From the IMG/VR virus record IMGVR_UViG_3300042881_002431, positions 1 through 36,998 of that record: a stretch of 36,998 nt of DNA; one strand, written 5' to 3'. Under the pieces are notes generated by a model. The model had not been told where the DNA came from. It saw only the letters and a program-made list of their open reading frames with translations, and made no database searches. Shown here in pieces: positions 9,685 through 32,843 of the stretch. This DNA is from a virus. Every line of letters begins with the position of its first letter. Position 1 is the stretch's first letter. Position numbers and translations under genes: made by a program.

Positions 9685-9878
9685 TGATGACTATCTTTGA
9701 TTTGTTTCATGATGAACGCCGTTATGGTTGGGTTGTAGACAAACGATACGACTGGATTAATATGTTGAATAAAATGCAGAAAAATAATCCCAGACGATTT
9801 AAAGAGTTCCAATACTCACAAGAGACAATTTATCATTACATAGATAGATTAAATCAGGAACAAAATCTAAATGACTGA
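9684..9878 (+). CDS. Small phage protein of unknown function
   Basis: A 64-residue protein with an aromatic, charged composition (FDLFHDERRYGWVVDKRYDW). Two start codons are adjacent (ATGATG). Its end overlaps the radical SAM gene by eight bases. No domain recognised. Confidence 0.65.
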   Translation: MMTIFDLFHDERRYGWVVDKRYDWINMLNKMQKNNPRRFKEFQYSQETIYHYIDRLNQEQNLND

Positions 9879-10863
9879 ACTGAAAAATAAAAAAATTATC
9901 AGAGTAATCCAAAAAGATGATTCATTAATGAATATGACTTGGATGACTAATAATATATGTAATAATAGATGTTCATATTGTGTACCAACTTTAAATGCAG
10001 GCATAGGTCATCATTATGAATGGGAAAAGGCAAAGAAGTTCCTGGAAGCTTTATTTGAGAGATATCCAAAAATTCATTGTTCAGTAGCTGGTGGTGAACC
10101 AAGTCTTAGTGAATTTTTTCCAGAACTAGTAAAATTTTTTAATGATGCTGGTAATACTATAGGCGTAACTAGTAATGCATATAAGTCTGTAGAGTATTGG
10201 TCTGACATTTCAAAATATTTAAACTATATTTGTTTCTCTTATCACGCAGAATTTCCTGCAAAAGATTTTAAAGAAAAAGTAATTGCTGCCAGTCTTAATA
10301 CGTTTGTAACTGTAAGACTTATGATGCATTCTGTAAAATGGGATCATTGTATGGAAGTTTTTCACTCCTTAAAAGACATTGATACTTTTCTCTTGGAACC
10401 TGTTAGAATTTTAGATTGGAGTAGTGAAAATAAAGAATCGTTCCAGTATACTCAAGAACAATTGGATTGGTTTCAAAGTGAAGAAGCTATGAAACCTCAT
10501 AAAAAAGGATTAGAACATTTAATAGGTTTAGTCAACCCTGTGAATTTAAATTCTTCCTTTCAGTTTGAGGATCAATCTATTGTATCTAATCCATATTACA
10601 ATACTGTAGAATTTATAAATGCTGGTATGACTAATTTTGAAGGATATAGTTGTGAAATAGGATTAAAAAGTTTATTTGTAAATTCTGCTGGAGAAATTTA
10701 CTTAGGTAATTGTTTTGTTGGAGGTTCTATAGGAAACATAGAAGATTTTGAAAATATTAAATGGCCAACTAAACCTGTTACCTGTGATTTAAACATATGT
10801 CGTTGTGCGACGGATGTTAATGTTAGTAAATGGATAAAAAATTATAACGAATACATACAATGA
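9871..10863 (+). CDS. Radical SAM enzyme with extra C-terminal cysteines
   Basis: A 330-residue protein. The [4Fe-4S] motif is Cys30-x3-Cys34-x2-Cys37 (ICNNRCSYC), followed by the SAM-binding VAGGEPSLS segment (about residues 72-80). The C-terminal quarter has a cysteine group (SCEIG, GNCFVGG, TCDLNICRC) that may bind a second cluster, as in SPASM-type enzymes acting on peptides or proteins. Radical SAM enzymes make a 5'-deoxyadenosyl radical and do difficult C-H chemistry; the substrate cannot be told. The composition is AT-rich. It lies within the small-gene belt and starts inside the upstream gene. It could act on a peptide made by a neighbour or belong with the decoration genes downstream. 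Confidence 0.85.
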   Translation: MTELKNKKIIRVIQKDDSLMNMTWMTNNICNNRCSYCVPTLNAGIGHHYEWEKAKKFLEALFERYPKIHCSVAGGEPSLSEFFPELVKFFNDAGNTIGVTSNAYKSVEYWSDISKYLNYICFSYHAEFPAKDFKEKVIAASLNTFVTVRLMMHSVKWDHCMEVFHSLKDIDTFLLEPVRILDWSSENKESFQYTQEQLDWFQSEEAMKPHKKGLEHLIGLVNPVNLNSSFQFEDQSIVSNPYYNTVEFINAGMTNFEGYSCEIGLKSLFVNSAGEIYLGNCFVGGSIGNIEDFENIKWPTKPVTCDLNICRCATDVNVSKWIKNYNEYIQ

Positions 10864-12366: not shown

Positions 12367-12478
12367 TTGGTTATGTTATTGCGAAATCTGCGAAAGTTTA
12401 GGCCCTATTCCAGGACAACCTTCACTTCGCAGATTTATGGCATATAGGAGATATCTTAAAGAAGTAGGTGTATTATGA
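12278..12478 (+). CDS. Small Cys-containing phage protein, start uncertain
   Basis: The open frame ends at 12478, overlapping the next ATG (ATGATC). The convincing part is the C-terminal half, YDWLCYCEICESLGPIPGQ then SLRRFMAYRRYLKEVGV, with a CxCxxC cluster. The first in-frame ATG is at 12278, which overlaps the previous gene by 89 bases; a later non-ATG start is possible. Function unknown. Confidence 0.5.
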   Translation: MKLQNWLNSLKNYTQTSPHPALDPTTPWYDWLCYCEICESLGPIPGQPSLRRFMAYRRYLKEVGVL

Positions 12479-12690
12479 TCGCAACAAATTGGTTTCAAAG
12501 AAAATGGGGTCTTGAAGATCCTGTTTTGATTGATGAACTTTATTCCAGAATAGTTGATTTAGAACAAAGGGTTAGAGTTCTTGAAGAAGAAAATGTAGAA
12601 ACAACTAACGAATTATATCGTCTTGAAAACTCTTTGGATGCTCGTATAGATATAATTGCAGAACGTTGTAGGATTGATTACGATGTATGA
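12475..12690 (+). CDS. Small coiled-coil phage protein
   Basis: A 71-residue protein with a clear heptad region from about residue 20 to 60 (LIDELYSRIVDLEQRVRVLE and onward). This predicts a two- or three-stranded coiled coil. It is coupled by an overlapping ATG to the upstream gene and overlaps the next by eight bases. No function assigned. Confidence 0.7.
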   Translation: MIATNWFQRKWGLEDPVLIDELYSRIVDLEQRVRVLEEENVETTNELYRLENSLDARIDIIAERCRIDYDV

Positions 12691-12856
12691 ACTTGATGAT
12701 TTTGAAAAAGCCCTCGCACATTTTGGTACAAGGGTCGATATTATTTGCGCTCTTGAAATGGGTGGAAAAATTGATTCCATTTCCGCATATAAGGAAATCA
12801 AAGCAGAACTTAAAGAACTTAAGCGAGCTAAAAAACAATACGCTAAGGATATGTGA
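12683..12856 (+). CDS. Small helical phage protein of unknown function
   Basis: 57 residues from the ATG at 12683, overlapping the previous stop. It contains DDFEKALAHFGTRVDIICAL and a Lys-rich helix (KAELKELKRAKKQYAKDM). I recall the phrase ALAHFGTRVDIICALE in cyanomyovirus proteins. The A-run near 12831-12837, before its end, is a possible slip site into the next frame, which encodes a zinc knuckle. Confidence 0.7.
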   Translation: MYELDDFEKALAHFGTRVDIICALEMGGKIDSISAYKEIKAELKELKRAKKQYAKDM

Positions 12857-12971
12857 TAATTGCGGCGAGGAAAAATCACTAACTTCTGGGCATTTTCAAA
12901 TTGTCAAACAGTTTAAAAGTGGTTTTTCTTATTGGTGTAATGACTGCAATAAACCAAAACCTAAAGAATAA
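12762..12971 (+). CDS. Zinc-knuckle C-terminal peptide, start uncertain
   Basis: The +1 frame relative to the 12683 gene ends at 12971. Its last 40 residues hold a well-formed four-cysteine ribbon: CDNC, then 23 residues with His, then CNDC, ending PKPKE. No ATG lies near the ribbon; a GTG at 12762 and an ATG at 12687 are in frame. It may use a non-ATG start or be reached by +1 frameshifting from the upstream gene. The ribbon itself looks real. Confidence 0.45.
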   Translation: MEKLIPFPHIRKSKQNLKNLSELKNNTLRICDNCGEEKSLTSGHFQIVKQFKSGFSYWCNDCNKPKPKE

Positions 12972-13000
12972 TATTTTCAAAGAGACGTAACATATCGACT

Positions 13001-13008
13001 TATAAATA
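13001..13008 (+). promoter_or_regulatory. T4-type late promoter TATAAATA
   Basis: A perfect match to the T4 late promoter word, 32 bases before the start codon of the tail-fibre-like gene at 13040, in a non-coding gap. T4-type late promoters need gp55, gp33 and the sliding clamp; a gp33 gene is present at 35396. This promoter probably reads into the fibre genes and the decoration operon beyond. Confidence 0.8.
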
Positions 13009-13039
13009 TTCTAAACGCAGGTAATAATTTGGTATACTT

Positions 13040-13618
13040 ATGGCTACATTGACATCCAGTGGAATAAGATTTGCAACTACTCCAGTAGTAGATGAATTAA
13101 ATTCAAAGAGAGGAATTTTTCCTACTGGAACTGCTTGGGTTTTTTATCAAGCTTCTGCCCCTACTGGGTGGACTAAAGATACAAGTTTAACTCTTAATGA
13201 TAAAGCACTTAGAGTTGTAAGTGGAACTGGTGGTGTTTATGGAGGCACTAATGGTTTCTCGGTAATTATGAATGGATTTAATGTTGGTGGCGGATCATTA
13301 ACAAGTTCAGATGCTACAGGAGGAACTCAATTATCAGTTCCACAAATTGCTTCTCACGATCATCCTAGTAGTGGTACTGGGTTGGATGCAGTTCCAGCAA
13401 TATTTAATCCTGATGGAGCTTTCACTGGATGGAATGGTGGTGATGTAGCTAGAAGTTCTGGTTGGACTCGAACTTTTCCTGGGTTTGGAGATGCTGGAAC
13501 TGCTCCAGTCGGAGACTCTCACTCTCACCCTTTTAGTGCAACTGCACCAGTTCCTATTCAAAACGTGTCTATGCAACCTACTTACATGGATGTTATCGTC
13601 TGTACTTTTGATGGATAA
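13040..13618 (+). CDS. Tail-fibre/collar-like structural protein (first paralog)
   Basis: A 192-residue Gly, Ser and Thr-rich protein. It has the phage collar/fibre-tip signature: FYQASAPTGWTKDT near residue 36, LRVVSGTGG, and two His pairs (SHDHP and DSHSHPF) of the kind that bind metal or close trimeric fibre tips. It shares the N-terminal MA-LT-SGI-F, the APTGWTK and the SHSHP segments with the next gene. It is expected in the virion, at the fibre tip or as a short fibre. It lies directly after a late promoter. The C-terminus, MDVIVCTFDG, is also conserved between the pair. Confidence 0.8.
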   Translation: MATLTSSGIRFATTPVVDELNSKRGIFPTGTAWVFYQASAPTGWTKDTSLTLNDKALRVVSGTGGVYGGTNGFSVIMNGFNVGGGSLTSSDATGGTQLSVPQIASHDHPSSGTGLDAVPAIFNPDGAFTGWNGGDVARSSGWTRTFPGFGDAGTAPVGDSHSHPFSATAPVPIQNVSMQPTYMDVIVCTFDG

Positions 13619-13621
13619 ATA
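13614..13621 (+). promoter_or_regulatory. Candidate late promoter GATAAATA
   Basis: Seven of eight bases match TATAAATA. It overlaps the stop codon of the first fibre-like gene and sits 35 bases before the next ATG, almost the same spacing as the perfect copy at 13001. A weaker, second late start for the paralog is likely. Confidence 0.5.
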
Positions 13622-13655
13622 CTTTAAATAACATCTGTAGTTTACATCATATAAA

Positions 13656-14177
13656 ATGGCTAAATTAACAGCGTCGGGAATAGTTTTCAGTGATTCTACA
13701 ATTTTAAATTCAAAATACGGAATTGTTCCACAAAACTCAGTATCAATATTTTATCAAGCCTCTGCCCCTACTGGGTGGACTAAAAATATAACTCATAATG
13801 ACAAAACACTTAGAGTAGTTAATGGAACTGGAGGAGTTTCTGGAGGAACTCAACCATTTACTACTGTGTTTCCCAACTCTGTTAGAACATTTTCATCTCC
13901 GAATATTCCTGTGACGGGAACTGTTGGTAACACTACATTAACAACTGCTCAGTTGCCAAGTCACACACACCCTAACGGTGGTTCTATTGGATTAAGTCCA
14001 GGTGGTGGTGATGTTGCTTTTGGATCTGGATGGACTAGAACTACACCAGCTACAGGTGGTGGCCCAACCTCTGGAGGTGGATCTCATAGTCACCCTTGGT
14101 CTGGTACAGCCCAATGGTCTCTAAATGTAGACCTCAGAATTCAATACATAGATGTTATTCTTTGTAGTTTTGCTTAA
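13656..14177 (+). CDS. Tail-fibre/collar-like structural protein (second paralog)
   Basis: A 173-residue paralog of the 13040 product. It has the same N-terminal plan (MAKLTASGIVFSDS), the segment IFYQASAPTGWTKN, LRVVNGTGGVSGGTQ, two His pairs (SHTHP and SHSHPW), and the end YIDVILCSFA. The middle differs, as in proteins whose receptor-contact part varies. The duplicated pair could make a mixed or alternative fibre tip. The function is inferred from motifs and position after a late promoter. Confidence 0.8.
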   Translation: MAKLTASGIVFSDSTILNSKYGIVPQNSVSIFYQASAPTGWTKNITHNDKTLRVVNGTGGVSGGTQPFTTVFPNSVRTFSSPNIPVTGTVGNTTLTTAQLPSHTHPNGGSIGLSPGGGDVAFGSGWTRTTPATGGGPTSGGGSHSHPWSGTAQWSLNVDLRIQYIDVILCSFA

Positions 14178-14212
14178 TTTGTGATAGAATAGATAAAAAT
14201 ATTTTTGATTAT

Positions 14213-14557
14213 ATGAAAAAAAACGAGTCTGGTAATTTTTGCCCACTTATTAAAAAAGATTGTGTAGAACATAAATGTTCATGGTACACACATGTAAGAG
14301 GCATGAATCCAAATACAGGACAAGATGTAGATCATTGGTCATGTGCTGTAACTTGGATGCCCATGTTAACGATTGAAAATTCTCAACAACAGAGACAAAC
14401 TGGTTCTGCTGTAGAGTCATTTAGAAATGAAGTTGTTAAATCCAATGATGAAAATAGACAACTATATATTGATATGATTCAACAAAATGGTATATTGCCA
14501 GTAAATATAACTTCTTTGACAAGTACACACACCTTACCAGAAAATTCAGGAGAATAA
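14213..14557 (+). CDS. Cysteine-containing conserved cyanophage protein of unknown function
   Basis: A 114-residue protein. The N-terminal half carries four cysteines (Cys10, Cys17, Cys22, Cys44) with histidines between (FCPLIKKDCVEHKCSWYTHV, then DHWSCAVTWMP), a plausible zinc or iron-sulfur site. The C-terminal half is polar and helical. I recall this protein from other cyanomyoviruses, usually near structural genes. Its job is unknown. Confidence 0.75.
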   Translation: MKKNESGNFCPLIKKDCVEHKCSWYTHVRGMNPNTGQDVDHWSCAVTWMPMLTIENSQQQRQTGSAVESFRNEVVKSNDENRQLYIDMIQQNGILPVNITSLTSTHTLPENSGE

Positions 14558-14560
14558 ATC

Positions 14561-15070
14561 ATGAGATTAACGATCATTCCATCAGACGGTTCCGTTTATA
14601 TGGATGGATCTGGTTACACTAACATAGATCTAACTTGGATTCCTGAAATTGATGGAAAAAAAGTTCATGCAGTTCAATGGTCAGGTGACGAAGGTGAAGT
14701 TGAGTTTGTTGGACCTGCACAAAATCTGAAGATCAATGATTTGGGTGTATTTGAACAAGCTATTAGTTTGTGGAATGAAAAGAAGGAAGAAGAAGATGCT
14801 TTCCTAAAACAACAATTAGAATTGGAAGAGAGACGTAAGAGAGAAGAAGAAGAACGTCTAAAATCTCAATTTCTTAGCTTTGATGATTACGATGAAGAAT
14901 ATGGATTGGGTATTGAGGAATTCAATGAACTCGATGAAAAACCATATATTCCACCAACCCCAACACATATTCCTCCTGTTGAACCACCTCTAGCATATGC
15001 AGACGCAAATGAAGAGGATGAGGACGAAGATTTATTCTACGATATTGAGGAACTTCTCAAAGAGATTTGA
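14561..15070 (+). CDS. Tail-fibre-assembly-like protein with acidic tail
   Basis: A 169-residue protein with an AGGAG site upstream. The first 70 residues form a compact domain (MRLTIIPSDGSVYMDGSGYT, then HAVQWSGDEGEVEFVG) that I associate with phage fibre assembly chaperone-like proteins. A charged coiled coil follows (about residues 73-105, runs of Glu and Lys). The C-terminus is Pro-rich then strongly acidic. Its position after two fibre-like genes fits an assembly role. Moderate confidence in function. Confidence 0.65.
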   Translation: MRLTIIPSDGSVYMDGSGYTNIDLTWIPEIDGKKVHAVQWSGDEGEVEFVGPAQNLKINDLGVFEQAISLWNEKKEEEDAFLKQQLELEERRKREEEERLKSQFLSFDDYDEEYGLGIEEFNELDEKPYIPPTPTHIPPVEPPLAYADANEEDEDEDLFYDIEELLKEI

Positions 15071-15094
15071 GTTTAAATTATTAAACGTGAACTG

Positions 15095-16279
15095 ATGAAT
15101 AGAAATTTAATTGAAAACAATTATATTGTTCTGCGAAATTTTATTTCAAGAGAAAGATCATTAGATCTTTCTACAGAATTTTTAAATCATTGTGAAACAA
15201 ACAATGTGGATGGAGATTCACAAGCTCCAAATTCATATTCTACTTATAATTATATCTCATTTTTAGAATTACTTTGTGAAAAAACTCCAGAAATATCTTC
15301 CGTAATTGAAGAGACTGTTTTACCTACTTATGTTTATTCAAGAGTATATAAAAATGGAAGTGAACTATCGCCTCATACTGATAGAGATGCTTGCGAAATA
15401 TCAGTAACGTTACACTTGAATGGAGATTCTAGTTGGCCTATATGGATAGAAACGCCATCAGGAGAAAAACGTTACGTTGAATTGAATCCTGGCGATGCTA
15501 TGATTTATCTCGGTAGAAATGCAACTCATTGGAGAGAACCCTATCAAGGAGATAATTATAGTCAAGTCTTTTTACATTATGTAAGAAGTCGTGGAGATTG
15601 TTCTTACGCTTACTTTGATAAACTTAATGAGACTACCAAACCAGTAACTGAAAACACTGATATTGAACAATCTATTGTTGAGACTAAATCGGAAATAAAA
15701 ACGACTCCTGCAAGAAGTAAAAAGTCTTTAGAAGATTATATCTTCACATTAGATAATGTTGTTCCAAATGAACTCTGCGATAGAATCTTAAAAGAATATC
15801 GTGATTGTAGTTTTTGGACTCCAACTAGTGTGGGAAATGGAAATGTAAATGACCAAATTAGAAACTGCGATGTCATTAATATTTCCGAAAATATAGTAGT
15901 TGAGAAAAATTTTGATATTAGAAAGAAAATAGATGAAGACTTTTATGTTTGTGCTTCAAGAGCAATAAATGAGTATAGGAAATTGTTTCCTGAAGTTGCA
16001 TCAGATATTGATACTGGATATGGATTACTAAGATATAAGAAAGGTCAGTTTTATATTCAACATACGGACTCATTCCAACAACAACAGAGATCTGTAAGTT
16101 GTTCTTTTCTATTGAATGATGATTATGAAGGTGGTGAGTTTGCGTTTTTTGATAGAGAAATTATTATAAGTGGTTCAAAAGGATCTATTGTAATGTTTCC
16201 CTCTAATTTTATGTTCCCGCATGAAATTATGCCTGTAACTTCTGGAACTAGATATTCAATTATCACCTGGTATGTCTAA
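15095..16279 (+). CDS. Tandem double-domain 2-oxoglutarate/Fe(II) oxygenase
   Basis: A 394-residue protein with two complete-looking 2OG-Fe(II) domains joined by a polar Thr/Glu linker (about residues 178-210). Domain 1 has the iron triad His94-x-Asp96 (SPHTDRD) and His145 (THWREPY). Domain 2 has His323-x-Asp325 (IQHTDSF) and His376 (FPHEIMP), with the 2-oxoglutarate-binding Arg386 (GTRYSIITWYV). The domains look like the prolyl/lysyl 4-hydroxylase group, which hydroxylates protein or small-molecule substrates using O2 and 2-oxoglutarate. It opens the coupled decoration operon and is followed directly by GT25-like genes. That pairing recalls collagen lysyl hydroxylase with its glycosyltransferase. 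The substrate is unknown; fibre proteins just upstream are candidates. Confidence 0.85.
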   Translation: MNRNLIENNYIVLRNFISRERSLDLSTEFLNHCETNNVDGDSQAPNSYSTYNYISFLELLCEKTPEISSVIEETVLPTYVYSRVYKNGSELSPHTDRDACEISVTLHLNGDSSWPIWIETPSGEKRYVELNPGDAMIYLGRNATHWREPYQGDNYSQVFLHYVRSRGDCSYAYFDKLNETTKPVTENTDIEQSIVETKSEIKTTPARSKKSLEDYIFTLDNVVPNELCDRILKEYRDCSFWTPTSVGNGNVNDQIRNCDVINISENIVVEKNFDIRKKIDEDFYVCASRAINEYRKLFPEVASDIDTGYGLLRYKKGQFYIQHTDSFQQQQRSVSCSFLLNDDYEGGEFAFFDREIIISGSKGSIVMFPSNFMFPHEIMPVTSGTRYSIITWYV

Positions 16280-17069
16280 TAAACTTGAAGGGATTCCGAG
16301 TATTTACTATCTAAATTTGGACTCCGAATTGGATAGAAGAAAGTACATGGAAAAACAATTTGAGAAATGGAATCTGAGTAATGTAACAAGATTTTCTGGA
16401 TCACAATACCTAGCAGAAAATTATGAGGATTGGAAAAGTATTTTACATTTTCCTCACAAAATTACAGAAAAAAAACATCAATTAGCTGCTTCCATTACTC
16501 TTTCTACTCTCGAAATGATTCGACATTGGTTAGAAACTACCAATGAAAAACATTTGATTTTATTTGAAGATGATTATGATCTAGACTTAATTGAATACTG
16601 GCACTTTGATTGGAAGTATTTGATGAATCATATTCCATATGATTGGGATTGCATTCAGTTAGGATATGAGTCATCTCGTTTTATTAAATTTTTCCTTCAC
16701 CCTAAAGATGAAACAAGTGCATATGGACCAATTCTGATTAACAGACATTTTGCTCAAAAGTTAATTAATTTGCATTATGTCAAAAATAGGTACATGTTAA
16801 TTCGAAAATACGGAAGCCATCCATATAACACTGGTCACCGAGTTGTTTCACTGGATAGTTTCATTTGTTTTTTGGGGAAGACATATCAACTTCCTTTAAT
16901 AACTCAAAATCCACATCTAGATAAAATAGCAAAGAAACATCACTTTCTTTGTAGAGACATGTACTATGAGTGGTGGCAGAACGAAAGAGATAATTTTTCT
17001 TTGGAAGATTTTTTTTCTTATGGGAAAGAAAATGATTATCAAATGACAATAAAAGTAAATTATCAATGA
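16272..17069 (+). CDS. GT25-like glycosyltransferase, copy 1
   Basis: A 265-residue protein. Its N-terminus, GIPSIYYLNLDSELDRRKYM, matches the GT25 opening (hydrophobic strand, Asn-Leu, Asp-Arg-Arg), and LILFEDDYDLD (about residue 95) holds the acidic metal/sugar-nucleotide motif. The GT25 family includes bacterial LPS glycosyltransferases and collagen galactosyltransferases using UDP-sugars. The C-terminal box EWW...DFFSYGKENDY recurs in all five copies of this window. The start overlaps the oxygenase by eight bases and the stop overlaps the next start by ATGA. The acceptor is unknown. Confidence 0.8.
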   Translation: MSNKLEGIPSIYYLNLDSELDRRKYMEKQFEKWNLSNVTRFSGSQYLAENYEDWKSILHFPHKITEKKHQLAASITLSTLEMIRHWLETTNEKHLILFEDDYDLDLIEYWHFDWKYLMNHIPYDWDCIQLGYESSRFIKFFLHPKDETSAYGPILINRHFAQKLINLHYVKNRYMLIRKYGSHPYNTGHRVVSLDSFICFLGKTYQLPLITQNPHLDKIAKKHHFLCRDMYYEWWQNERDNFSLEDFFSYGKENDYQMTIKVNYQ

Positions 17070-17890
17070 CAATTAATTCTAAGTTGGAAGGTCTGCCTCC
17101 AATATATTATTTTAACCTAGAACACAGAGTAGATCGTAGAGAATACTTAGAAAATCAATTTTTGGAATATGGAATAACAAACTATCAAAGAGTTAATTCT
17201 TCCAGATATTCAGTTGATAATTATAAAGATTGGAAGTCTAAAGTTTTAACCGATAAACTTAGAACACAAGTATGGTTTCTTGCTACTCTAATTGATAGAA
17301 TTCATGGTATAATTGATTGGTACAATTCTAATATTTCCGAAACTTGTTTAATGGTTGAGGATGATATTTGTATGGACCCTGTAAATTATTGGGGATTTGA
17401 TTGGGAGACTTTTGTTAATAATTTGCCTTGTAATTGGGAATGTATCCAACTTCATATTATTGGAGAAAAATTTCTCAGGATGAATCTATCTAAGTGGAAT
17501 AGAAATAATCACTCCACAGGTTGTATACTTATTAATAGATCATATGCACAAAAATTAATTAAACTTCATTACGTAAATAATAAGTTTAAATTATATTCTA
17601 ATTATGGATATAATAAAAATTGGCCAGAATATCATTATCAATCGGTAGATTTTGTTTTATATCAAATAGGAATAACATATTCAATTCCTATTTTCACCAC
17701 TAATTATAATTTTGTGAGTGATGGATACAGAAACGGAAAAATAAATCAAATGTCTAAAAATAGTGATATTTTGGTTTTAGATTGGTGGAAGAATAAGTCT
17801 CGGAATTATACTTTGGATGACATTTTTTACTTGGATTCGTTAAGAAAAAAAGAATTAATCATAGATATAAGTCATGAATTTGAAGGATAA
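17066..17890 (+). CDS. GT25-like glycosyltransferase, copy 2
   Basis: A 274-residue paralog. It begins SKLEGLPPIYYFNLEHRVDR, has LMVEDDICMD as the acidic motif and the late segment WWKNKSRNYTLDDIF. It lacks the YGKPND end box of copies 3-5, finishing instead with LIIDISHEFEG. It is among the more diverged of the five and close to copy 5 in the acidic-motif region (SETC...EDD). It is coupled by ATGA upstream and by a 17-base overlap downstream. Sugar and acceptor specificity probably differ from the other copies. Confidence 0.8.
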   Translation: MTINSKLEGLPPIYYFNLEHRVDRREYLENQFLEYGITNYQRVNSSRYSVDNYKDWKSKVLTDKLRTQVWFLATLIDRIHGIIDWYNSNISETCLMVEDDICMDPVNYWGFDWETFVNNLPCNWECIQLHIIGEKFLRMNLSKWNRNNHSTGCILINRSYAQKLIKLHYVNNKFKLYSNYGYNKNWPEYHYQSVDFVLYQIGITYSIPIFTTNYNFVSDGYRNGKINQMSKNSDILVLDWWKNKSRNYTLDDIFYLDSLRKKELIIDISHEFEG

Positions 17891-18743
17891 GTTACGGGGA
17901 CTTCCTCCCATTATTTTGGCTACAATTGACGAACGAAAAGATAGACAGGAATATACTGAAACTCAATATGATTATTGGGGTATAAAAAATTATACAAAAG
18001 TGTCCGGATCCAAGTATCAACTTTCAACATATGAAGATTACTGGAAAGATCTTGTTATTTTAAATCCATTTCCTGAAGATTATATAAGAAAAAATCACCA
18101 CATTGCAGAAATTTCTATAACTCTTGCTCATTTAATAAACATTAAAAATTGGTTAGAGACTAGTAACGATCCATACGTTATCATTATGGAAGATGACTAC
18201 GATCTAAGTTTTATTGAGTACTGGCATTTTGATTGGGAATATCTGATGAATAGTCTCCCATATGATTGGGATTGTATTCAGATGAGTTTTGAGAATGAGG
18301 AAGAAATTCCCTGTTTTTTACATCCAATTCTACCTAAACATGATAGTGGTGGTTCTTTGATTAATAGAAGATATGCAGAGAAAATTATAAGTCTTCACTA
18401 TAAAGACGGTAAATTCGATCTCTCTCAAAAAATTTCTAACTATAAATGGTCAAGTAAAGGCATAACCTTTTATGAAGGATTGGGGATGCCAAATTTTACT
18501 ACAGATTATTTTCTTGGCCATAATGGAAAAACATATTGTATACCCTTGTTTTCAGTAAACCAAAATCTGGGTAGTTGGGCTCAAAATATTTCTAGAAAAG
18601 AAGAAAGGACAGATCTATCATTTTCTTATAAAGCGTATAAGAAATGGTGGACTAAACTTAGAGATGAGTATACCCTGAAAGAGTTCTTTACTTATGGCAA
18701 ACCGAATGATAGAATAATTGTATCGGGAGAAATAGATATATGA
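17874..18743 (+). CDS. GT25-like glycosyltransferase, copy 3
   Basis: A 289-residue paralog with acidic motif IIMEDDYDLS, a WHFDWEYLMN segment and the end box FFTYGKPNDRI. It is most similar to copy 4 directly downstream; long runs of both protein and DNA are identical (for example around 17970-18000 and 18836-18866), indicating recent tandem duplication. Its start lies 17 bases inside copy 2 and its stop overlaps copy 4 by ATGA. It has an insertion near residues 190-205 relative to copy 4. Confidence 0.8.
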   Translation: MNLKDKLRGLPPIILATIDERKDRQEYTETQYDYWGIKNYTKVSGSKYQLSTYEDYWKDLVILNPFPEDYIRKNHHIAEISITLAHLINIKNWLETSNDPYVIIMEDDYDLSFIEYWHFDWEYLMNSLPYDWDCIQMSFENEEEIPCFLHPILPKHDSGGSLINRRYAEKIISLHYKDGKFDLSQKISNYKWSSKGITFYEGLGMPNFTTDYFLGHNGKTYCIPLFSVNQNLGSWAQNISRKEERTDLSFSYKAYKKWWTKLRDEYTLKEFFTYGKPNDRIIVSGEIDI

Positions 18744-19591
18744 ATTTGGGCAATAAGTTAAAGGATCTTCCTCATATTATGATGTTAACTCTCGATGAAA
18801 GAGAGGATAGACAACAGTACGCAGAAATACAGTATGATTATTGGGGTATAAAAAATTATACAAAAGTTTCTGGATCAAAATACCAATTTTCTACTTATGA
18901 AGATTGGAAACATATGGTTAAGTTAAATCCATTTTCAGGAGCCCTCGAAAAAAAGAAGAGACATATTACTGATACTAGTATCGCTCTGTCATATCTACTA
19001 ATAATAAAAAATTGGTTAGAAACGACAAATGAGAAATACTTGATTTTAATGGAGGATGACTATGATTTATTCTTCATTGAATACTGGCATTTTGATTGGA
19101 ACTACTTGATGAATAATATCCCATACGATTGGGATTGCATTCAAATGAGTTTCGAAAATCCCAATCTAATTCCTTGTTTCTTACATCCAATTTTACCTGC
19201 TCATGGTGTAGGTGGTTGTATGATTAATAGAAGATATGCAGAGAAAATAATATCCTTACACTATAAGGATGATAAGTTTGATTTGTCACAAAAGATTTGT
19301 AATTATAATTGGTCTGAAATAGAAAGTACAAACCCCAATTTTACTGTGGATTATTTTTTGTGTCATAATGGAAAAACTTATTCAATTCCTTTATTTTCTA
19401 TAAATCAACGTTTTGGTAGTTATGCTGAAAATATTTGTAGAAAAGAGGAAAGATCTGATTTAGAATTTTCGTATAAAGCTTGTAAAAAGTGGTGGACTGA
19501 ACTTAGAGATCAATATACTTTAGATGATTTCTTTACCTATGGTAAACCAAATGATAGAATAATTACACCCGAGGAATTTCAAAATGTTTGA
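18740..19591 (+). CDS. GT25-like glycosyltransferase, copy 4
   Basis: A 283-residue paralog with acidic motif LILMEDDYDLF, INRRYAEKIISLHYKDDKFD and FFTYGKPNDRI, nearly the same as copy 3. Differences are spread along the protein, so both copies seem functional. It overlaps the aminotransferase-like gene by eight bases. The probable role is adding a sugar to the same type of acceptor as copy 3, or a second position on it. Confidence 0.8.
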   Translation: MNLGNKLKDLPHIMMLTLDEREDRQQYAEIQYDYWGIKNYTKVSGSKYQFSTYEDWKHMVKLNPFSGALEKKKRHITDTSIALSYLLIIKNWLETTNEKYLILMEDDYDLFFIEYWHFDWNYLMNNIPYDWDCIQMSFENPNLIPCFLHPILPAHGVGGCMINRRYAEKIISLHYKDDKFDLSQKICNYNWSEIESTNPNFTVDYFLCHNGKTYSIPLFSINQRFGSYAENICRKEERSDLEFSYKACKKWWTELRDQYTLDDFFTYGKPNDRIITPEEFQNV

Positions 19592-20171
19592 GCATGTTAG
19601 TCAATTTGAATCTGAAATTGCAGAGTTTTTTGGAGCTCCTTATGCAGTAGCTACAGATTCGTGTACTCATGCATTAGAACTTTGTTTGAGGCATACTCAC
19701 GAAGATTACCTTACAATTCCTACAAGGACTTACATTTCAGTTCCAATGACTTGTATGAAACTTGGTCTAACTTGGGGTTGGAGAGAAGAAGAGTGGTCCG
19801 ATTATTACTACCTAGGATTTACAAATATTATTGATGCTGCCGTTCTTTGGGGTGAAAACACATATATTCCAGGAACATATATGTGTTTAAGTTTTCAATA
19901 TAAGAAACACCTAAACCTTGGACGAGGTGGTGCAATCTTGTTGCAAAACAAAGAAGATTATGATACACTTAAAAAAATGTCTTATGATGGTCGTGATCCT
20001 AGTCGTCCATGGGCTGAACAGGACATAGATACTATTGGGTATCATTATTACATGACTCCAGAGATGGCGAAAACGGGAATTGAATTACTAAATGAGCGGA
20101 AAAAAATTCCCGGTAAAAAATGGAGCCATAGGAATTACCCAGACTTGAGAGAGATGTCTGTATTCAAATGA
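19584..20171 (+). CDS. Half-length DegT/DnrJ/EryC1/StrS-type PLP aminotransferase
   Basis: A 195-residue protein that reads as the N-terminal large-domain part of a sugar aminotransferase. It has a cofactor phosphate loop TDSCTHALEL (residues 24-33), an Asp84 (NIIDAA) for the PLP ring nitrogen, the Schiff-base lysine region SFQYKKHLNLGRGG (Lys107 or Lys108), and the GR...YHYYMTPEMA segment before the end. The usual family length is 360-400, so the C-terminal domain is absent. It is not a simple frameshift: the next 500 bases encode an unrelated oxygenase, coupled by ATGA. It may be a compact active form, need a partner, or have another PLP activity. Its neighbours suggest making an amino sugar. 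Confidence 0.75.
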   Translation: MFEHVSQFESEIAEFFGAPYAVATDSCTHALELCLRHTHEDYLTIPTRTYISVPMTCMKLGLTWGWREEEWSDYYYLGFTNIIDAAVLWGENTYIPGTYMCLSFQYKKHLNLGRGGAILLQNKEDYDTLKKMSYDGRDPSRPWAEQDIDTIGYHYYMTPEMAKTGIELLNERKKIPGKKWSHRNYPDLREMSVFK

Positions 20172-20668
20172 TTAATCACATAAAACCTAATTGGAACGTT
20201 GAAGATTTTTATAATCTTGATTATGTTTTATCGACTCATAAAGATACTGATTTGGTAAATCAATATCTGAGTTCTGGTCATAGTAAAGATAAATTGTCTA
20301 TGTACAAGTATCATTTACCAAATCCTATGCCAAAATGTGTGGACGAGTATATTATTCCTAAGTTTTGTTTTTTGGATAAAGTAGCTGCTGCAGTTAATTA
20401 CTTTAAACCTGGACAATATTTACCTCTTCATACAGATCTTTTTGGTAAGTATATAGAGTTAAATGATATTGGGTCTGAAAATGTAATAAGATGTATGGTA
20501 ATGTTGGAAGATAGTTCTCCAGGACAAATTTTGCAAGTTAAAGATACCGCATATTGTAAGTGGAAAGCCGGACATTGTTTTTACTGGGATTATGATGAAA
20601 TACATGCGTTTTATAATTTTAGTATGAAAGATAGGTATGCAATTCAAATCACTGGGGTTAAGAAATGA
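20168..20668 (+). CDS. 2-oxoglutarate/Fe(II) oxygenase-like protein (Asp/Asn hydroxylase or P4H type)
   Basis: A 166-residue protein of double-stranded beta-helix type. It has the iron motif LPLHTDLF (His-x-Asp, about residues 87-89), a late His in EIHAFYNF and a 2-oxoglutarate Arg in MKDRYAIQITG. A GQILQVKDT strand and CKWKAGHCFYWDYDE fit the core jellyroll. It is shorter than most family members but contains all key residues. It lies between aminotransferase and amidinotransferase genes with ATGA on both sides, so it probably hydroxylates an intermediate or the same acceptor. Confidence 0.75.
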   Translation: MINHIKPNWNVEDFYNLDYVLSTHKDTDLVNQYLSSGHSKDKLSMYKYHLPNPMPKCVDEYIIPKFCFLDKVAAAVNYFKPGQYLPLHTDLFGKYIELNDIGSENVIRCMVMLEDSSPGQILQVKDTAYCKWKAGHCFYWDYDEIHAFYNFSMKDRYAIQITGVKK

Positions 20669-21627
20669 AAAGTCAGAATGAATGGGATAGACTCAAAAAA
20701 GTAATCGTAGGTGTTGCAGACTATGCAAGAGTCCCTGAAGTAGATTTGAGTGTTCGCACTATTAATTATGCGGACAGAAAAGATGTTTCTGATGTTCCAG
20801 TTGGGCCATATCCCCAACAAGTTATTGATGAATCAAATGAAGACTTGGAGACTTTTGTTAAGTTTCTGTTGGAAGAAGGTGTAGAAGTTGTAAGGTCAGA
20901 AAGGAGTCCAACAGAGTATTACAATTTTTGTCCAAGAGATGTAATCTTTACTCATAAAGACCTGACTGTTGCAACTCCAATGCCATTGGAGTGTAGAAAA
21001 GATGCATGGAAACCTTTGCTTGATCCTTTGGGTACTACTATCATTGTTCCATGCAAACACAAAGAAGAACTTTATAACGAAAATTGTGTAGGAGACAAGG
21101 ATACTCTTGCACTTACAGAGGTTACTCCCGCATTTGATGCAGCAAATATCATTCGTGCAAATGATGATGTTTTGTACCTTGTGTCTAACAGTGGAAATGT
21201 TGCAGGGGCTAACATACTTCAAGAAATGCTTCGGGGTCGTGCAAAAGTTCATCTGCTTCAAGGCGTTTATAGTTATATGCACATTGATACCACGATTGCA
21301 TTTCTTCGTGAAGGTTTGATGTTATTGAATCCCGAAAGAATTAAGTCTGTAGATGTTCTTCCAGAACCCTTTAGAAACTGGGATGTAATTTGGTGTCCAG
21401 AACCTGTAGATATTGGTTATTTTCCAGGTTATAATCATTCATCTGAATGGATTAATATGAATCTTTTCAGTGTAAGTCCGAATCTAGTTGCTTTGGAACA
21501 ACATCAAGATCCAACTAGAAAAGAGTTAGAAAAGTATGGAATAGAATGTGCCATGCTTCCTATGAGACACGCAAGAACATTGAGTGGTTGTTTTCATTGT
21601 GTTACATTAGATCTTGAAAGAGAATAG
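20665..21627 (+). CDS. Amidinotransferase (AGAT/StrB family)
   Basis: A 320-residue protein with the family's catalytic residues in order: Asp158 (AFDAAN), His206 (YMHIDTT) and the nucleophile Cys312 (GCFHCVTLD). Supporting motifs include CPRDVIF near 89-95 and LLNPERI. The family moves an amidino group from arginine to an amine, making guanidinoacetate (glycine amidinotransferase) or guanidino-inositols (StrB1 in streptomycin). Next to an aminotransferase, transfer to an amino group of a sugar or cyclitol is a reasonable inference. The DNA is somewhat less AT-rich than the neighbouring glycosyltransferases. It is coupled by ATGA upstream and by a one-base overlap (TAGTG) downstream. Confidence 0.88.
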   Translation: MKSQNEWDRLKKVIVGVADYARVPEVDLSVRTINYADRKDVSDVPVGPYPQQVIDESNEDLETFVKFLLEEGVEVVRSERSPTEYYNFCPRDVIFTHKDLTVATPMPLECRKDAWKPLLDPLGTTIIVPCKHKEELYNENCVGDKDTLALTEVTPAFDAANIIRANDDVLYLVSNSGNVAGANILQEMLRGRAKVHLLQGVYSYMHIDTTIAFLREGLMLLNPERIKSVDVLPEPFRNWDVIWCPEPVDIGYFPGYNHSSEWINMNLFSVSPNLVALEQHQDPTRKELEKYGIECAMLPMRHARTLSGCFHCVTLDLERE

Positions 21628-22484
21628 TGGACTTAGAGAATAAACTCAAAGGTTTTCCTCCCATTTACTACATCAATCTCCTTCATAGGACTGATAGAAA
21701 AAACTGGATGGAATCCCAATTTAATAATTGGGGAATAACGGATCATCATAGGATTAATGCTTCAAAGTATGACATTTCCAAATATGATGAATGGAAAGAT
21801 ATAATTGTAGAAAATCAAATTCTCGAATGTTTGTCTGCAATGTCAACAGCATTAAATCATATAGAAACAATTATTAATTGGTATGATAGTAATCTATCCG
21901 AAACTTGCATTATAATGGAGGATGATTTATCAATACAGAATATAAAATATTGGAATTTTGATTGGACATACTTTGAGAATAATCTACCAGAAAACTGGGA
22001 GTGTATTCAACTCTATTTTTGTAGTACATATCACTCAAATGGTCTATTTGTACCAATGTTTTTACACAGGAGATCTGATGCTGGATCTGCAGCTGCGTAT
22101 TTGATAAATCGCACATATGCCAAAAAAGTTAAAAACTTGATGTATCGTGATGGTAAATATAGATTAACATTTGCAGATAATTCCTTTCATAAGAGACATA
22201 GTAAAACACATATAACAGGAGACTCTAATTTATTTGATATTGGAATTACATATTCAATTCCTCTTTTCAATCTTAATGTCAATATGAATGGGGATAGTGA
22301 GCAGAATAATAATAAAATGTTTCCCATAGATATAATTTGCAGTCGATTAATAGAAGATTGGTGGAAAAATCATCATCATAAATTTCCATTGGAAGATTTT
22401 TTTACTTATGGTAAACCAAATGATCTAAAAATGACCATGAAGGTAAAAATGGAAGACATAACAAAATTTCTAGAAAAATGTTAA
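21627..22484 (+). CDS. GT25-like glycosyltransferase, copy 5
   Basis: A 285-residue paralog of the four upstream copies, starting with GTG that overlaps the amidinotransferase stop. It opens ENKLKGFPPIYYINLLHRTDR, has the acidic motif CIIMEDDLSI and the end box FFTYGKPNDLK. It is separated from the others by three small-molecule or hydroxylation genes, so it may act after those steps. Its end overlaps the carbamoyltransferase by seven bases. Confidence 0.8.
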   Translation: MDLENKLKGFPPIYYINLLHRTDRKNWMESQFNNWGITDHHRINASKYDISKYDEWKDIIVENQILECLSAMSTALNHIETIINWYDSNLSETCIIMEDDLSIQNIKYWNFDWTYFENNLPENWECIQLYFCSTYHSNGLFVPMFLHRRSDAGSAAAYLINRTYAKKVKNLMYRDGKYRLTFADNSFHKRHSKTHITGDSNLFDIGITYSIPLFNLNVNMNGDSEQNNNKMFPIDIICSRLIEDWWKNHHHKFPLEDFFTYGKPNDLKMTMKVKMEDITKFLEKC

Positions 22485-24058
22485 TACTTAGTGTTCATTT
22501 AGGACATGACTCTTCAATATGTGTCCTAAACAATGGAAATTTAGAACAATATTTCTTAGTAGAAAGATATACAAGAAAAAAACATGATGACAACCAATCA
22601 ACAATATTGGTGTTATTAAATGATATTTGTAGTAAACTAACTGAACCGTTAGATGTCATTAGTATATCTAATTTTAATACTAAAGATGCGATAATATTAG
22701 AAATTTTTGAAGAATGCAGAAAATATAATTCAAATGTAAAACTAATATTGCAACAGGAACATCATTTAAATCATGCTTCTCTCGCTTTTTATAATAGTGG
22801 GTTCGATAAGAGTCTTGTTGTTGTCGTTGACGGAGCTGGATCAACAATTAACGATAATTTGGTAGAAGTGGAAAGTGTTTTTCTTTTTGATCAGGAAAAA
22901 AACACCTTAATTTATAAGAATATCATAGAAGATTCAAATCCATTTGATCTTTTCTGGGAAGATTCTACTTTTGGGGTCGGTAAATTATATGATATTGCTG
23001 CAATTTTAATTGGAAATACCCCTGATGATTGTGGAAAGGTAATGGGACTTTCATCATATGGATCTCCAAATCAATTATTTAAAAATTTATTCTTAGAAAA
23101 GAATATCTTTAATACTCATTTTTTTAAAAACTCTTCTCAAGAGATTAAACAATTTTTGAAAACTCCGATTAGAAAAATAGATAGTGAAAACTATAAATTA
23201 CATGCAGATTTTTGTTATGAAGTTCAACATCAAACGCAAAAAGTAGTTGGAGATATAATAGAAGATTCAATAATAAAAACAGGGATTAAGAAAGTCTGTA
23301 TCTCTGGTGGATATGGTATGAACATCGTTGCGAACTATTATTATTTGCAACGATTTCCTGATGTAGAATTTTATTTTGAACCATTGTGTAATGATAATGG
23401 AATAAGTATAGGTGCTGCGATGAATTCATATTTTCAATTAACCAATAAAATTCCCAATCCTCTCCAAACAACCTCCTTTCATGGATCTACTCATGAAATT
23501 TCTTTGTATAAAGGTAAAACAACATCAATAGAAACCATTGTTAATCTACTAAATCAAAATAAATCTATTGCTGTGTATAGTGGTCTCGCAGAAGCTGGTC
23601 AAAGAGCACTTGGGAATCGTTCTATATTTTTTAATCCATTAAATTTAAATGCAAAAGATATTGTAAATAAAATCAAAAAAAGAGAGTGGTATCGTCCTTT
23701 TGCTTGTGTGGTATTGGAAGAGGATGTTAATGTTTATTTTGATATGGGGAATGTAAAATCAAGTCGGTTTATGACTACATGTTTCCCAGTAAGACGAGAG
23801 TGTGTTAAAATAATGCCAGGAATAACCCATGTAGATAATACATGTAGAGTTCAAACTGTTTCCAAAACGGATGGTTACTTGTATAAACTTTTACAAGAAT
23901 TTAAAAAATTGTCTGGACATGGTATTCTTTTGAATACTAGTTTTAATTTAGCTGGAGAACCTTTAGTAGAGACTCCAACGGATGCATTGAATACTCTAAA
24001 TAATTCGTCTTTAGATTATCTTTGGTTTGAAGAAACACAACAATTACTTAGTAGATAA
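22478..24058 (+). CDS. NodU/CmcH/TobZ-type O-carbamoyltransferase
   Basis: A 526-residue two-domain enzyme. The N-terminal Kae1-like domain opens LSVHLGHDSSICVL and has EHHLNHASLAFYNSGF (metal/ligand histidines near 95-99) and VVVVDGAGS (Asp118). The C-terminal YrdC-like half has EAGQRALGNRSIFFNPL, REWYRPFACVVLEED and ILLNTSFNLAGEPLVETP, all hallmarks of the family. It uses carbamoyl phosphate and ATP to add a carbamoyl group to a sugar hydroxyl, as in Nod factors and tobramycin. The length is a little below the usual 550-600. It is the last enzyme of the coupled operon. The acceptor is unknown. Confidence 0.93.
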   Translation: MLILSVHLGHDSSICVLNNGNLEQYFLVERYTRKKHDDNQSTILVLLNDICSKLTEPLDVISISNFNTKDAIILEIFEECRKYNSNVKLILQQEHHLNHASLAFYNSGFDKSLVVVVDGAGSTINDNLVEVESVFLFDQEKNTLIYKNIIEDSNPFDLFWEDSTFGVGKLYDIAAILIGNTPDDCGKVMGLSSYGSPNQLFKNLFLEKNIFNTHFFKNSSQEIKQFLKTPIRKIDSENYKLHADFCYEVQHQTQKVVGDIIEDSIIKTGIKKVCISGGYGMNIVANYYYLQRFPDVEFYFEPLCNDNGISIGAAMNSYFQLTNKIPNPLQTTSFHGSTHEISLYKGKTTSIETIVNLLNQNKSIAVYSGLAEAGQRALGNRSIFFNPLNLNAKDIVNKIKKREWYRPFACVVLEEDVNVYFDMGNVKSSRFMTTCFPVRRECVKIMPGITHVDNTCRVQTVSKTDGYLYKLLQEFKKLSGHGILLNTSFNLAGEPLVETPTDALNTLNNSSLDYLWFEETQQLLSR

Positions 24059-24220
24059 ATGGATAACAAACAATTACATGAATCTGGTTTAAACATTATA
24101 CAAAACTCCGATGGATCTTATGCATTTGAGTGGGATCCAAAGGACGAACGTTGGTCTTGGATGAATGACTTGACAGATCTGCAAATTAAGTCTATAGTGG
24201 AAGACATAATTGCAAAATAA
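24059..24220 (+). CDS. Small conserved cyanophage protein of unknown function
   Basis: A 53-residue protein starting directly at the carbamoyltransferase stop. The sequence includes SGLNIIQNSDGSYAFEWDPK and DERWSWMNDLTDLQIKSI, which I remember in very similar form from other cyanomyoviruses. Function unknown. A good sigma-70 promoter lies inside its 3' half (24170-24198) and serves the next gene. Confidence 0.7.
   Translation: MDNKQLHESGLNIIQNSDGSYAFEWDPKDERWSWMNDLTDLQIKSIVEDIIAK
24170..24198 (+). promoter_or_regulatory. Candidate sigma-70 promoter inside the small gene at 24059
   Basis: TTGACA (24170-24175), 17 bases, then TATAGT (24193-24198). It would give the 24231 gene and its followers their own start, separate from the late decoration operon. 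Confidence 0.5.
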
Positions 24221-31991: not shown

Positions 31992-32843
31992 ATGTCCGTT
32001 TCAATAATAACTGCATGTAAAAACAGATCTAAAGCTTTGGCTGTATCTATGGCTTCATGGATGCAGTTTGATGAGGTTGATGAAATACTAGTAACTAATT
32101 GGAATTCGGATGAATCTATAGATCATCTGACAGTTTTAAGTGAAAAGGTAAAAATAATTAATGTGAAAAATGAATCACATTTTAATCAACCTCAACCATT
32201 AAATTTAGCATCGTCTTTAGTTAAGAGTGAATATCTATTAAAGTTGGATTGTGATCATATATTAAATCCATATTTCAACTTTTTTCATTTTCATAAAATT
32301 GATGAAAATTCTTTTATATCCGGATCCAACAAATTACTGACTGGAATGGATTTTGATTTTTTACATCCACTCTGGGGTTTGTTGTATGTAAAAACCGAGA
32401 TCTTTAAAAAACTTGGTGGATATAATGAAAATATGGGCAAGTATTATGCAGTAGAGGACGATGAGTTGGCGGTAAGGTTAATATCATATGGACTTAATCC
32501 AATATTGATAGACGCCCAGAAATTATCAGCCTTACATATTCCACATTCAGATAAAGATAGAGTTAAAAATTTTCAATCGTTTGACAGTATTAGTCAAATT
32601 TTGAGTGAATTTGGAAAAGATTTTGTAGGAGATGATCTTTACACTTATATGGCAAAATTGTGTAAAGAAAAAAATCATAATGTATATCCTATATCCGCAA
32701 GAATGATGGAAATACTTGATTTGGAAGAGAAAAATGAGTACAGTGAAATAATCGACGTAAACGTTGAGTGGTATTCAGAACCAATCTACAAATGGAAAGT
32801 TACCCAAGTAAATGATCAAATATATGAAGCTGTTAAAATATGA
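31992..32843 (+). CDS. GT2-family glycosyltransferase, first of a tandem pair
   Basis: A 283-residue GT-A fold enzyme: SIITACKNRSKAL at the N-terminus (nucleotide-binding strand), LKLDCDHILNPY with the Asp-x-Asp metal motif, GGYNENMGKYYAVEDDELAV with the acceptor/catalytic Glu-Asp-Asp, and a C-terminal domain of about 90 residues. It transfers a sugar from a nucleotide sugar to an unknown acceptor. It is very AT-rich and inserted between thyX and phoH. The stop overlaps its paralog by ATGA. Confidence 0.85.
   Translation: MSVSIITACKNRSKALAVSMASWMQFDEVDEILVTNWNSDESIDHLTVLSEKVKIINVKNESHFNQPQPLNLASSLVKSEYLLKLDCDHILNPYFNFFHFHKIDENSFISGSNKLLTGMDFDFLHPLWGLLYVKTEIFKKLGGYNENMGKYYAVEDDELAVRLISYGLNPILIDAQKLSALHIPHSDKDRVKNFQSFDSISQILSEFGKDFVGDDLYTYMAKLCKEKNHNVYPISARMMEILDLEEKNEYSEIIDVNVEWYSEPIYKWKVTQVNDQIYEAVKI

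Follow-up and report, generated by a model that had tools for sequence, protein, structure and literature searches.

What does a run of ten overlapping genes for oxygenases, glycosyltransferases, an aminotransferase, an amidinotransferase and a carbamoyltransferase do in a virus? The run, called the cassette below, occupies positions 15095-24058 of a 36,998-base virus record (IMGVR_UViG_3300042881_002431), which was analysed at its full length and is referred to as the window. Judged by its genes, the window comes from a T4-like cyanophage, infecting marine cyanobacteria: psbA (at 2486), psbD (at 3625) and a PhotoRC-II RNA before psbA were present, along with thymidylate synthase, PhoH and helicase-loader genes. 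We give about an even chance to the reading that the cassette is a late-made system for decorating tail fibres with a guanidino- and carbamoyl-bearing sugar. A preliminary description of this DNA had proposed a decoration of this kind; its gene-level observation was confirmed, and its interpretation as a whole was partly supported.

All ten open reading frames (ORFs) lie on the + strand and overlap by 8, 4, 17, 4, 8, 4, 4, 1 and 7 bases, in order. The tight packing described earlier, with overlaps of 1-17 bases, was thus observed at all nine junctions, but none of them was a pure abutment. A near-identical cassette (99-100%) was found in two further contigs, L004 (62.6 kb) and L005 (23 kb), which makes an assembly artefact unlikely; a megablast search with positions 12475-24100 against phage records gave no match. 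Protein-family scans (Pfam, PHROG) took in 31 window proteins. IMG/VR was scanned with the amidinotransferase (AMT) as the query, and further scans were made with a miniature aminotransferase (mDegT) and a protein encoded at 14213, next to the fibre genes, the best 80 loci being kept for each; 37 loci were kept in a fibre-first scan. This sampling leans to near relatives of the window and the rows are related to each other, so that p values are too small. Residue-invariance counts were made on the ORFs of the isolate S-SCSM2R, of the AMT- and mDegT-scan loci and of the window, with identical ORFs counted once.

By its gene linkage, the core of the cassette is a trio composed of mDegT, a small 2-oxoglutarate (2OG) oxygenase (OGs) and AMT. 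The 80 loci of the AMT-first scan comprised 46 distinct ones (at 95% amino acid identity), in which neighbours were counted within 5 kb on the same strand. mDegT was present in 42 of these and OGs in 39, followed by a double 2OG oxygenase (OGd, 20), the carbamoyltransferase (CARB, 16) and an in-cassette radical SAM gene (14); in the 23 loci with full 5-kb flanks the numbers were 22, 21, 14, 11 and 6, respectively. When the AMT- and mDegT-first scans were pooled, AMT was found in 51 of 79 distinct mDegT loci, and co-occurrence in related phages, offered earlier as a check, was borne out by the presence of the whole trio in 47 of those 51, the other 4 being without OGs. Three gene orders were observed for the trio (35, 7 and 5 loci), or eight arrangements when the radical SAM gene was counted, and the persistence of the linkage while the order changes argues for a joint function. 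The single unit previously proposed for all ten genes can be sharpened to the trio as its core; OGd instead tracked short fibre genes (see below). In a distant case, a contig from a Chloroflexi metagenome-assembled genome (L170), AMT (41%), mDegT (45%) and CARB (29%) occurred together. Among 50,697 annotated phage records, AMT relatives were found in 13 and mDegT relatives in 7, and both were found in S-SCSM2R alone.

AMT (20665..21627, +) is of the StrB1 type, its best match being StrB1 itself (1bwd, E 4e-57), ahead of HsvA (E 3e-29), SxtG (E 7e-29) and AGAT (E 1e-25); no Pfam match was obtained at E 0.1. Residues D158, H206 and C312, which we take to be the Asp-His-Cys triad of the family, were kept in 67/67 aligned relatives. 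The nearest relative, together with the linkage to mDegT, suggests an aminocyclitol or aminosugar as the acceptor. OGs (20168..20668, +) resembles Asp/Arg hydroxylases (PF05118, E 6.5e-5, over the cut-off) and had no PDB match. Its H88, D90, H146 and R156 were kept in 59/59 relatives; the HxD...H pattern of OGs and of both halves of OGd presumably forms the iron triad.

mDegT (19584..20171, +) belongs to the DegT/StrS pyridoxal phosphate (PLP) aminotransferases (PF01041, E 4e-16, over the cut-off), although with 195 amino acids (aa) it falls outside the ~360-440 aa of full-length members. Residues D84 and K108, presumably the ring aspartate and the PLP lysine, were kept in 93/93 aligned relatives, and K108 paired with the lysine of the matching motif in perosamine synthetase 3bn1. 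An AlphaFold (AF2) model of the protein reached a pLDDT of 95.7. Its top Foldseek match was a GDP-perosamine synthase (E 1.1e-9), a protein of about twice its length and 16-22% identical to it in structural alignments; BtrR was also among the fold matches. With a second structural aligner, sugar aminotransferases among the 50 matches listed gave Z scores of 17.5-19.7 over 179-193 of the 195 residues, including 5u21 (WlaRG type; Z 19.7, root mean square deviation 2.4, 185 residues) and GDP-perosamine synthase 3dr7 (Z 18.6, 188 residues). In the model, the 195 residues span ~295 residues of the solved relative 3dr7, and the protein is accordingly best described, on the predicted structure, as a compressed but complete PLP fold. 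The "half-length" aminotransferase of the preliminary description was thus right in family and length, but not in being half a protein. The small size recurred among the matches in the loci, 137 of 149 ORFs having 190-209 aa (the other 12 had 58-437 aa). In one locus (L126:9290-10603) mDegT was fused behind a domain of ~236 aa without a Pfam match, at whose start a P-loop-like motif was seen by eye.

The neighbourhood of mDegT in other loci bears on its substrate. The 80 loci of the mDegT-first scan comprised 58 distinct ones, with AMT in 31, a dehydratase-like gene in 15 and both in 1, where a gene was counted as dehydratase-like if tblastn matched it to half of one representative (PF16363, E 1.7e-117) at 25% identity or more. 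Among the 38 loci with full flanks, 21 had AMT and OGs, 11 had only the dehydratase-like gene, 5 had neither and 1 had only OGs. Since mDegT without AMT within 5 kb often had a GDP-mannose-dehydratase-like gene nearby (14/27 distinct loci), its predicted activity is the amination of a keto-sugar. The block often found around AMT-less mDegT consisted of a 138-aa protein (no Pfam match, cupin-like by eye), a methyltransferase (PF08241, E 1.4e-9), mDegT and a GDP-mannose 4,6-dehydratase (PF16363). AMT and the dehydratase appear to exclude each other, but no separate weight was given to this, as the two states largely follow clades of the mDegT tree, with 10 changes over 84 labelled rows (90 rows, 6 unlabelled; rows with a stop in the translation were left out). 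The block was seen in phage loci such as L132, L138 and L152, and also on contigs L155-L168, from Prochlorococcus (including single-cell genomes), Neomarinimicrobiota and Alphaproteobacteria assemblies (e.g., L157, L160 and L164), the shorter of which could be viral in origin.

What the sugar would be placed on is suggested by the genes upstream. Two short stand-alone proteins of one family are encoded before the cassette, of 192 aa (13040..13618, +) and 173 aa (13656..14177, +), the second with two invariant HxH motifs. A profile of this family (A4) matched PDB tail fibres (9qgo, E 1.3e-7; 9nxk, E 2.8e-5), and many distant loci had longer ORFs (up to 1564 aa) with this domain at the C terminus. 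The fibre nature of these genes, supposed earlier, was upheld on both grounds, and by sequence the two proteins are members of a tail-fibre tip family. The homologue in phage S-SCSM1 (SSCSM1_244, 42.8%) is annotated "tail fiber protein (virion protein)"; an excerpt of the study of that virion by mass spectrometry gives 45 proteins (PMC9602691). Our own AF2 model of the second fibre protein was weak (pLDDT 70.7). In the fibre-first scan, loci L269 and L270 showed the fibre domain alone, and in L273 nothing was detected. Following the two fibre genes is the gene for the 14213 protein (14213..14557, +; 114 aa), a conserved companion that is possibly a fibre chaperone or cap. Its scan comprised 52 near (at least 80% identical) and 28 far (below 80%) loci, counts being restricted to loci with enough sequence, and a fibre-family gene lay directly upstream in 76/78 loci having at least 1 kb upstream (51/51 near, 25/27 far).

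A T4-type late promoter box, TATAAATA (13001..13008, +), starts 39 bases before the first fibre gene. Only its position was used, because its count in the window is at the chance level (3 versus 4.48 expected). Across loci, with identical upstream stretches counted once, the 100 bp ahead of the first fibre gene contained NATAAATA in 45/59 cases, compared to 27/591 for other + ORFs of more than 100 aa; in the 25 cases listed it lay ~40 bases before the fibre start. The late promoter assigned to the operon is thus conserved, but it stands 2 kb ahead of the cassette. The successive genes from the first fibre gene up to the cassette are separated by 37, 35, 3 and 24 bases, and terminator-like sites are no more frequent in this region than chance predicts (4 versus 4.1). 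This arrangement makes it likely that fibre genes and cassette share one late transcript.

The first cassette gene encodes OGd (15095..16279, +), whose C-terminal half matches PF13640 (E 1.7e-19), with weak matches to EGLN1, P4H and LH3 (best E 0.002). H94, D96 and H145 of one half and H323, D325, H376 and R386 of the other were kept in 46/46 relatives. The N-terminal half (15116-15628 of the window) had no Pfam match and matched only phrog_3531 and phrog_2954, labelled "ferrochelatase"; this label is probably wrong for the cyanophage proteins, since they match a 2OG N-terminal half with an invariant HxD...H. OGd followed short stand-alone fibre genes in 24/24 distinct clusters, compared to 2/12 for other fibre ORFs (Fisher p 2.6e-7). 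These 36 clusters came from the 14213-scan sample with the fibre-first loci L271 and L272 added, loci being left out if no fibre gene was detected in them or if less than 1.5 kb lay downstream. Within the far set the values were 6/6 versus 2/12 with L271 and L272 and 6/6 versus 0/10 without them (9/9 versus 0/14 before de-duplication). Since OGd tracks the form of the fibre, we place it with the fibre rather than with the sugar. Comparing the fibre residues of loci with and without the cassette was given up, as one side held only 4 usable sequences.

The remaining genes encode transferases. Five are paralogues of phrog_2835 "glucosyltransferase" with an EDD motif invariant among all five: glycosyltransferases (GTs) a (16272..17069, +; E 4.4e-34), b (17066..17890, +; E 3e-37), c (17874..18743, +; E 1.8e-39), d (18740..19591, +; E 3.3e-37) and e (GTe; 21627..22484, +; GTG start; E 8.7e-40). 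We call them GT25-like; GTa and GTe matched PF01755 below its cut-off (E 0.005 and 0.0019, respectively), 12 of 38 relatives scanned matched it at E 0.01 or better (best 1.8e-7), and the family gave a weak PDB match only (9crz, E 0.0095). CARB (22478..24058, +) belongs to the NodU/TobZ/GdmN O-carbamoyltransferases, with both domains over the cut-off (PF16861, E 2e-52; PF02543, E 1e-22) and matches to GdmN and TobZ at E ~1e-33 to 1e-34. In L219, a relative of the cassette, AMT, GTe and CARB were in several pieces, with stop codons inside the CARB pieces, so that either the cassette can decay or the L219 assembly is poor.

These assignments bear on two alternatives. Ordinary auxiliary metabolism, concerning 2-oxoglutarate or pyrimidines, has published proposals on its side: excerpts of the respective papers put forward such roles for cyanophage 2OG oxygenases (PMC3037559) and take a carbamoyltransferase as part of pyrimidine synthesis in S-SZBM1 (PMC9146016) and S-MS29 (PMC10436341). 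However, CARB matches O-carbamoyltransferases, no aspartate carbamoyltransferase family was among its matches, and the linkage of trio and GTs calls for a glycan explanation; we consider this account very improbable. The carbamoyltransferases of S-SZBM1 and S-MS29 also match the NodU/TobZ-type CARB of the window. The second alternative is DNA hypermodification, since modified bases are substrates of some phage glycosyltransferases and carbamoyltransferases. Here, the scans of 31 window proteins, a subset of the ORFs, revealed no base hydroxymethylase, and the cassette neighbours fibre genes that have a late box in front of them, which leaves glycosylated or carbamoylated bases a highly unlikely product.

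Returning to fibre decoration, the following sequence of reactions can be proposed. A keto-sugar, probably nucleotide-linked and supplied by host or phage, would be aminated by mDegT, guanidinylated by AMT with arginine as the donor and oxidised further by OGs. The five GT25-like transferases would place the sugar on its acceptor, and CARB would carbamoylate it. OGd, for its part, would hydroxylate residues of the short fibre-tip proteins and so make or shape the attachment points, in which case the decorated object would be the tail fibre. A wider claim is tentative, and we put it at somewhat less than an even chance: that this is a widespread phage system in which mDegT, a dedicated OGs and AMT provide a guanidino- and carbamoyl-sugar for the receptor-contacting fibre tip, the fibre-specific OGd prepares the sites and the positive sugar tunes binding to, or escape from, cyanobacterial surface polymers.

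Several observations weigh against fibre decoration. No modified protein is known. The PF01755 cut-off was passed by none of the five window GTs (two match below it); the enzyme classes named earlier were supported by Pfam, PHROG or PDB matches except that GT25 is weak. The keto-sugar source was not recognised in the 37-kb window; a PF16363 match anywhere was found in 7/15 records bearing the cassette or trio (including S-SCSM2R), at no more than 117 bits compared to 393 for a true dehydratase, and no such match was found in cassette- or trio-bearing records of 162 and 124 kb. OGd lay within 5 kb in only 20 of the 46 distinct AMT-first loci, and lineage may explain part of its association with short fibre genes. 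Downstream of the 14213 gene, near loci had OGd in 41/41, GT in 37/37 and mDegT and AMT in 25/25 cases, whereas far loci had OGd in 8/24, GT in 0/20 and mDegT and AMT in 0/11; the fibre genes and the 14213 gene thus make up a broader unit, and the sugar cassette goes with a single lineage of that unit. Finally, the association with fibre genes claimed earlier, which held for OGd, did not extend to every trio: no member of this fibre family was detected in trio loci L077, L079, L081-L083, L142 and L144, by a search that would overlook other fibre families, and the cassette of S-SCSM2R is ~37 kb away from the fibre-family genes of that phage (189.0-190.2 kb).

The trio without this fibre family nearby is also what the main rival would lead one to expect, namely, that the cassette rewrites host lipopolysaccharide (LPS) or O-antigen during infection, for example, to block superinfection, the fibre neighbourhood being a hotspot of host-interaction genes. 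LPS-type clusters are reported in excerpts on large cyanophages (PMC3037559, PMC9602691), S-SCSM2R has genes annotated KdsA and KdsB and a large GT cluster, and contigs of bacterial assemblies carry mDegT next to a GDP-mannose-dehydratase-like gene. However, Pfam and PHROG gave no match to a flippase, polymerase, ligase or polyprenyl-phosphate transferase for any of the ten cassette proteins, the late box precedes fibre genes, and the tracking of the short fibre form by OGd is left unexplained. We regard the LPS account as less likely than fibre decoration, but as a serious rival.

The Synechococcus phage S-SCSM2R (PQ898602), the one isolate found with the cassette (genes 299-310, 227.5-236.3 kb), is among the closest known systems and shares companions of the 14213 and 14561 genes (the latter described below), the double 2OG oxygenase, GTs, mDegT (66.7%), OGs (63%) and AMT (69.6%). 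It differs in having a radical SAM gene inside its cassette and both its fibre-family genes and its carbamoyltransferase elsewhere; the latter starts 665 bases after the fibre-family genes, with one gene and a wcaG RNA between, a placement that speaks for the fibre reading. No paper under the name of this phage was found in the literature searched. Excerpts of PMC3037559 describe LPS-type clusters in P-SSM2, S-SSM7 and S-SM2, which likewise are sugar-gene clusters in T4-like cyanophages; the window cassette, in contrast, adjoins fibre genes and has an amidinotransferase and a miniature DegT protein.

Two systems outside phages were also compared. The guanidino arm of streptomycin is made with StsC and StrB1, and the cassette resembles it in combining a DegT-family aminotransferase with a StrB-type amidinotransferase, but does so in a phage and amid glycosyltransferases and hydroxylases. 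No streptomycin-type cyclitol-forming enzyme, inositol-oxidising enzyme or kinase was found among the ten cassette proteins by Pfam and PHROG, the window being a fragment. The likeness extends to BtrR among the fold matches of mDegT and to the TobZ-like CARB, and would suit a small diffusible aminoglycoside-like molecule as the product. However, five GT25-like transferases, a prolyl-hydroxylase-like enzyme and the fibre linkage do not fit such a molecule, and the scans of 31 window proteins revealed no gene for cyclitol formation or for export, so that its chance appears slim. Collagen, for its part, is modified by lysyl hydroxylase and a GT25 galactosyltransferase. The comparison with collagen made earlier extends only to a prolyl-hydroxylase-like 2OG domain beside GT25-like enzymes; the GT25 match is weak, and no collagen Gly-X-Y repeats were seen by eye in the two fibre proteins. 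All the parts come from known families. In the open-access literature searched, however, neither the trio with its miniature aminotransferase nor the double hydroxylase that tracks short fibre genes is described, in line with the earlier statement that no described phage system with this combination was known to its author.

To our knowledge, how abundant cyanophages vary their contact with the host is an open question. If fibre decoration is correct, these phages would vary the chemistry of their fibre tips, in place of mutation or in addition to it. The 2OG oxygenases, carbamoyltransferases and glycosyltransferases, which papers on cyanophages mention one at a time among metabolism genes, would then gain one testable role, and a family of miniature PLP aminotransferases that may be of use in sugar chemistry would be added.

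Some neighbouring genes remain to be described. Between the fibre genes and the cassette lies an ORF for an acidic 169-aa protein (14561..15070, +), with no Pfam match above the cut-off and no PHROG match at E 0.01. Upstream of the fibre genes, a radical SAM protein is encoded (9871..10863, +; PF04055, E 1.1e-8), which is not clearly homologous to the in-cassette radical SAM family (E 0.059). Genes of the 9871 type were present upstream in 16/30 near loci with at least 5.5 kb upstream and in 0/11 far loci, and its product is a possible optional helper. A BtrN-like, ketone-forming role for the radical SAM proteins stays an idea, as each is optional (16/30 near fibre loci and 14/46 AMT-first loci, respectively). 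Near the thymidylate synthase gene, two ORFs (283 and 284 aa) at 31992-33694 gave at best weak PHROG matches; a relative of the first (39%) adjoins AMT in S-SCSM2R, where it is annotated as a family 2 glycosyltransferase.

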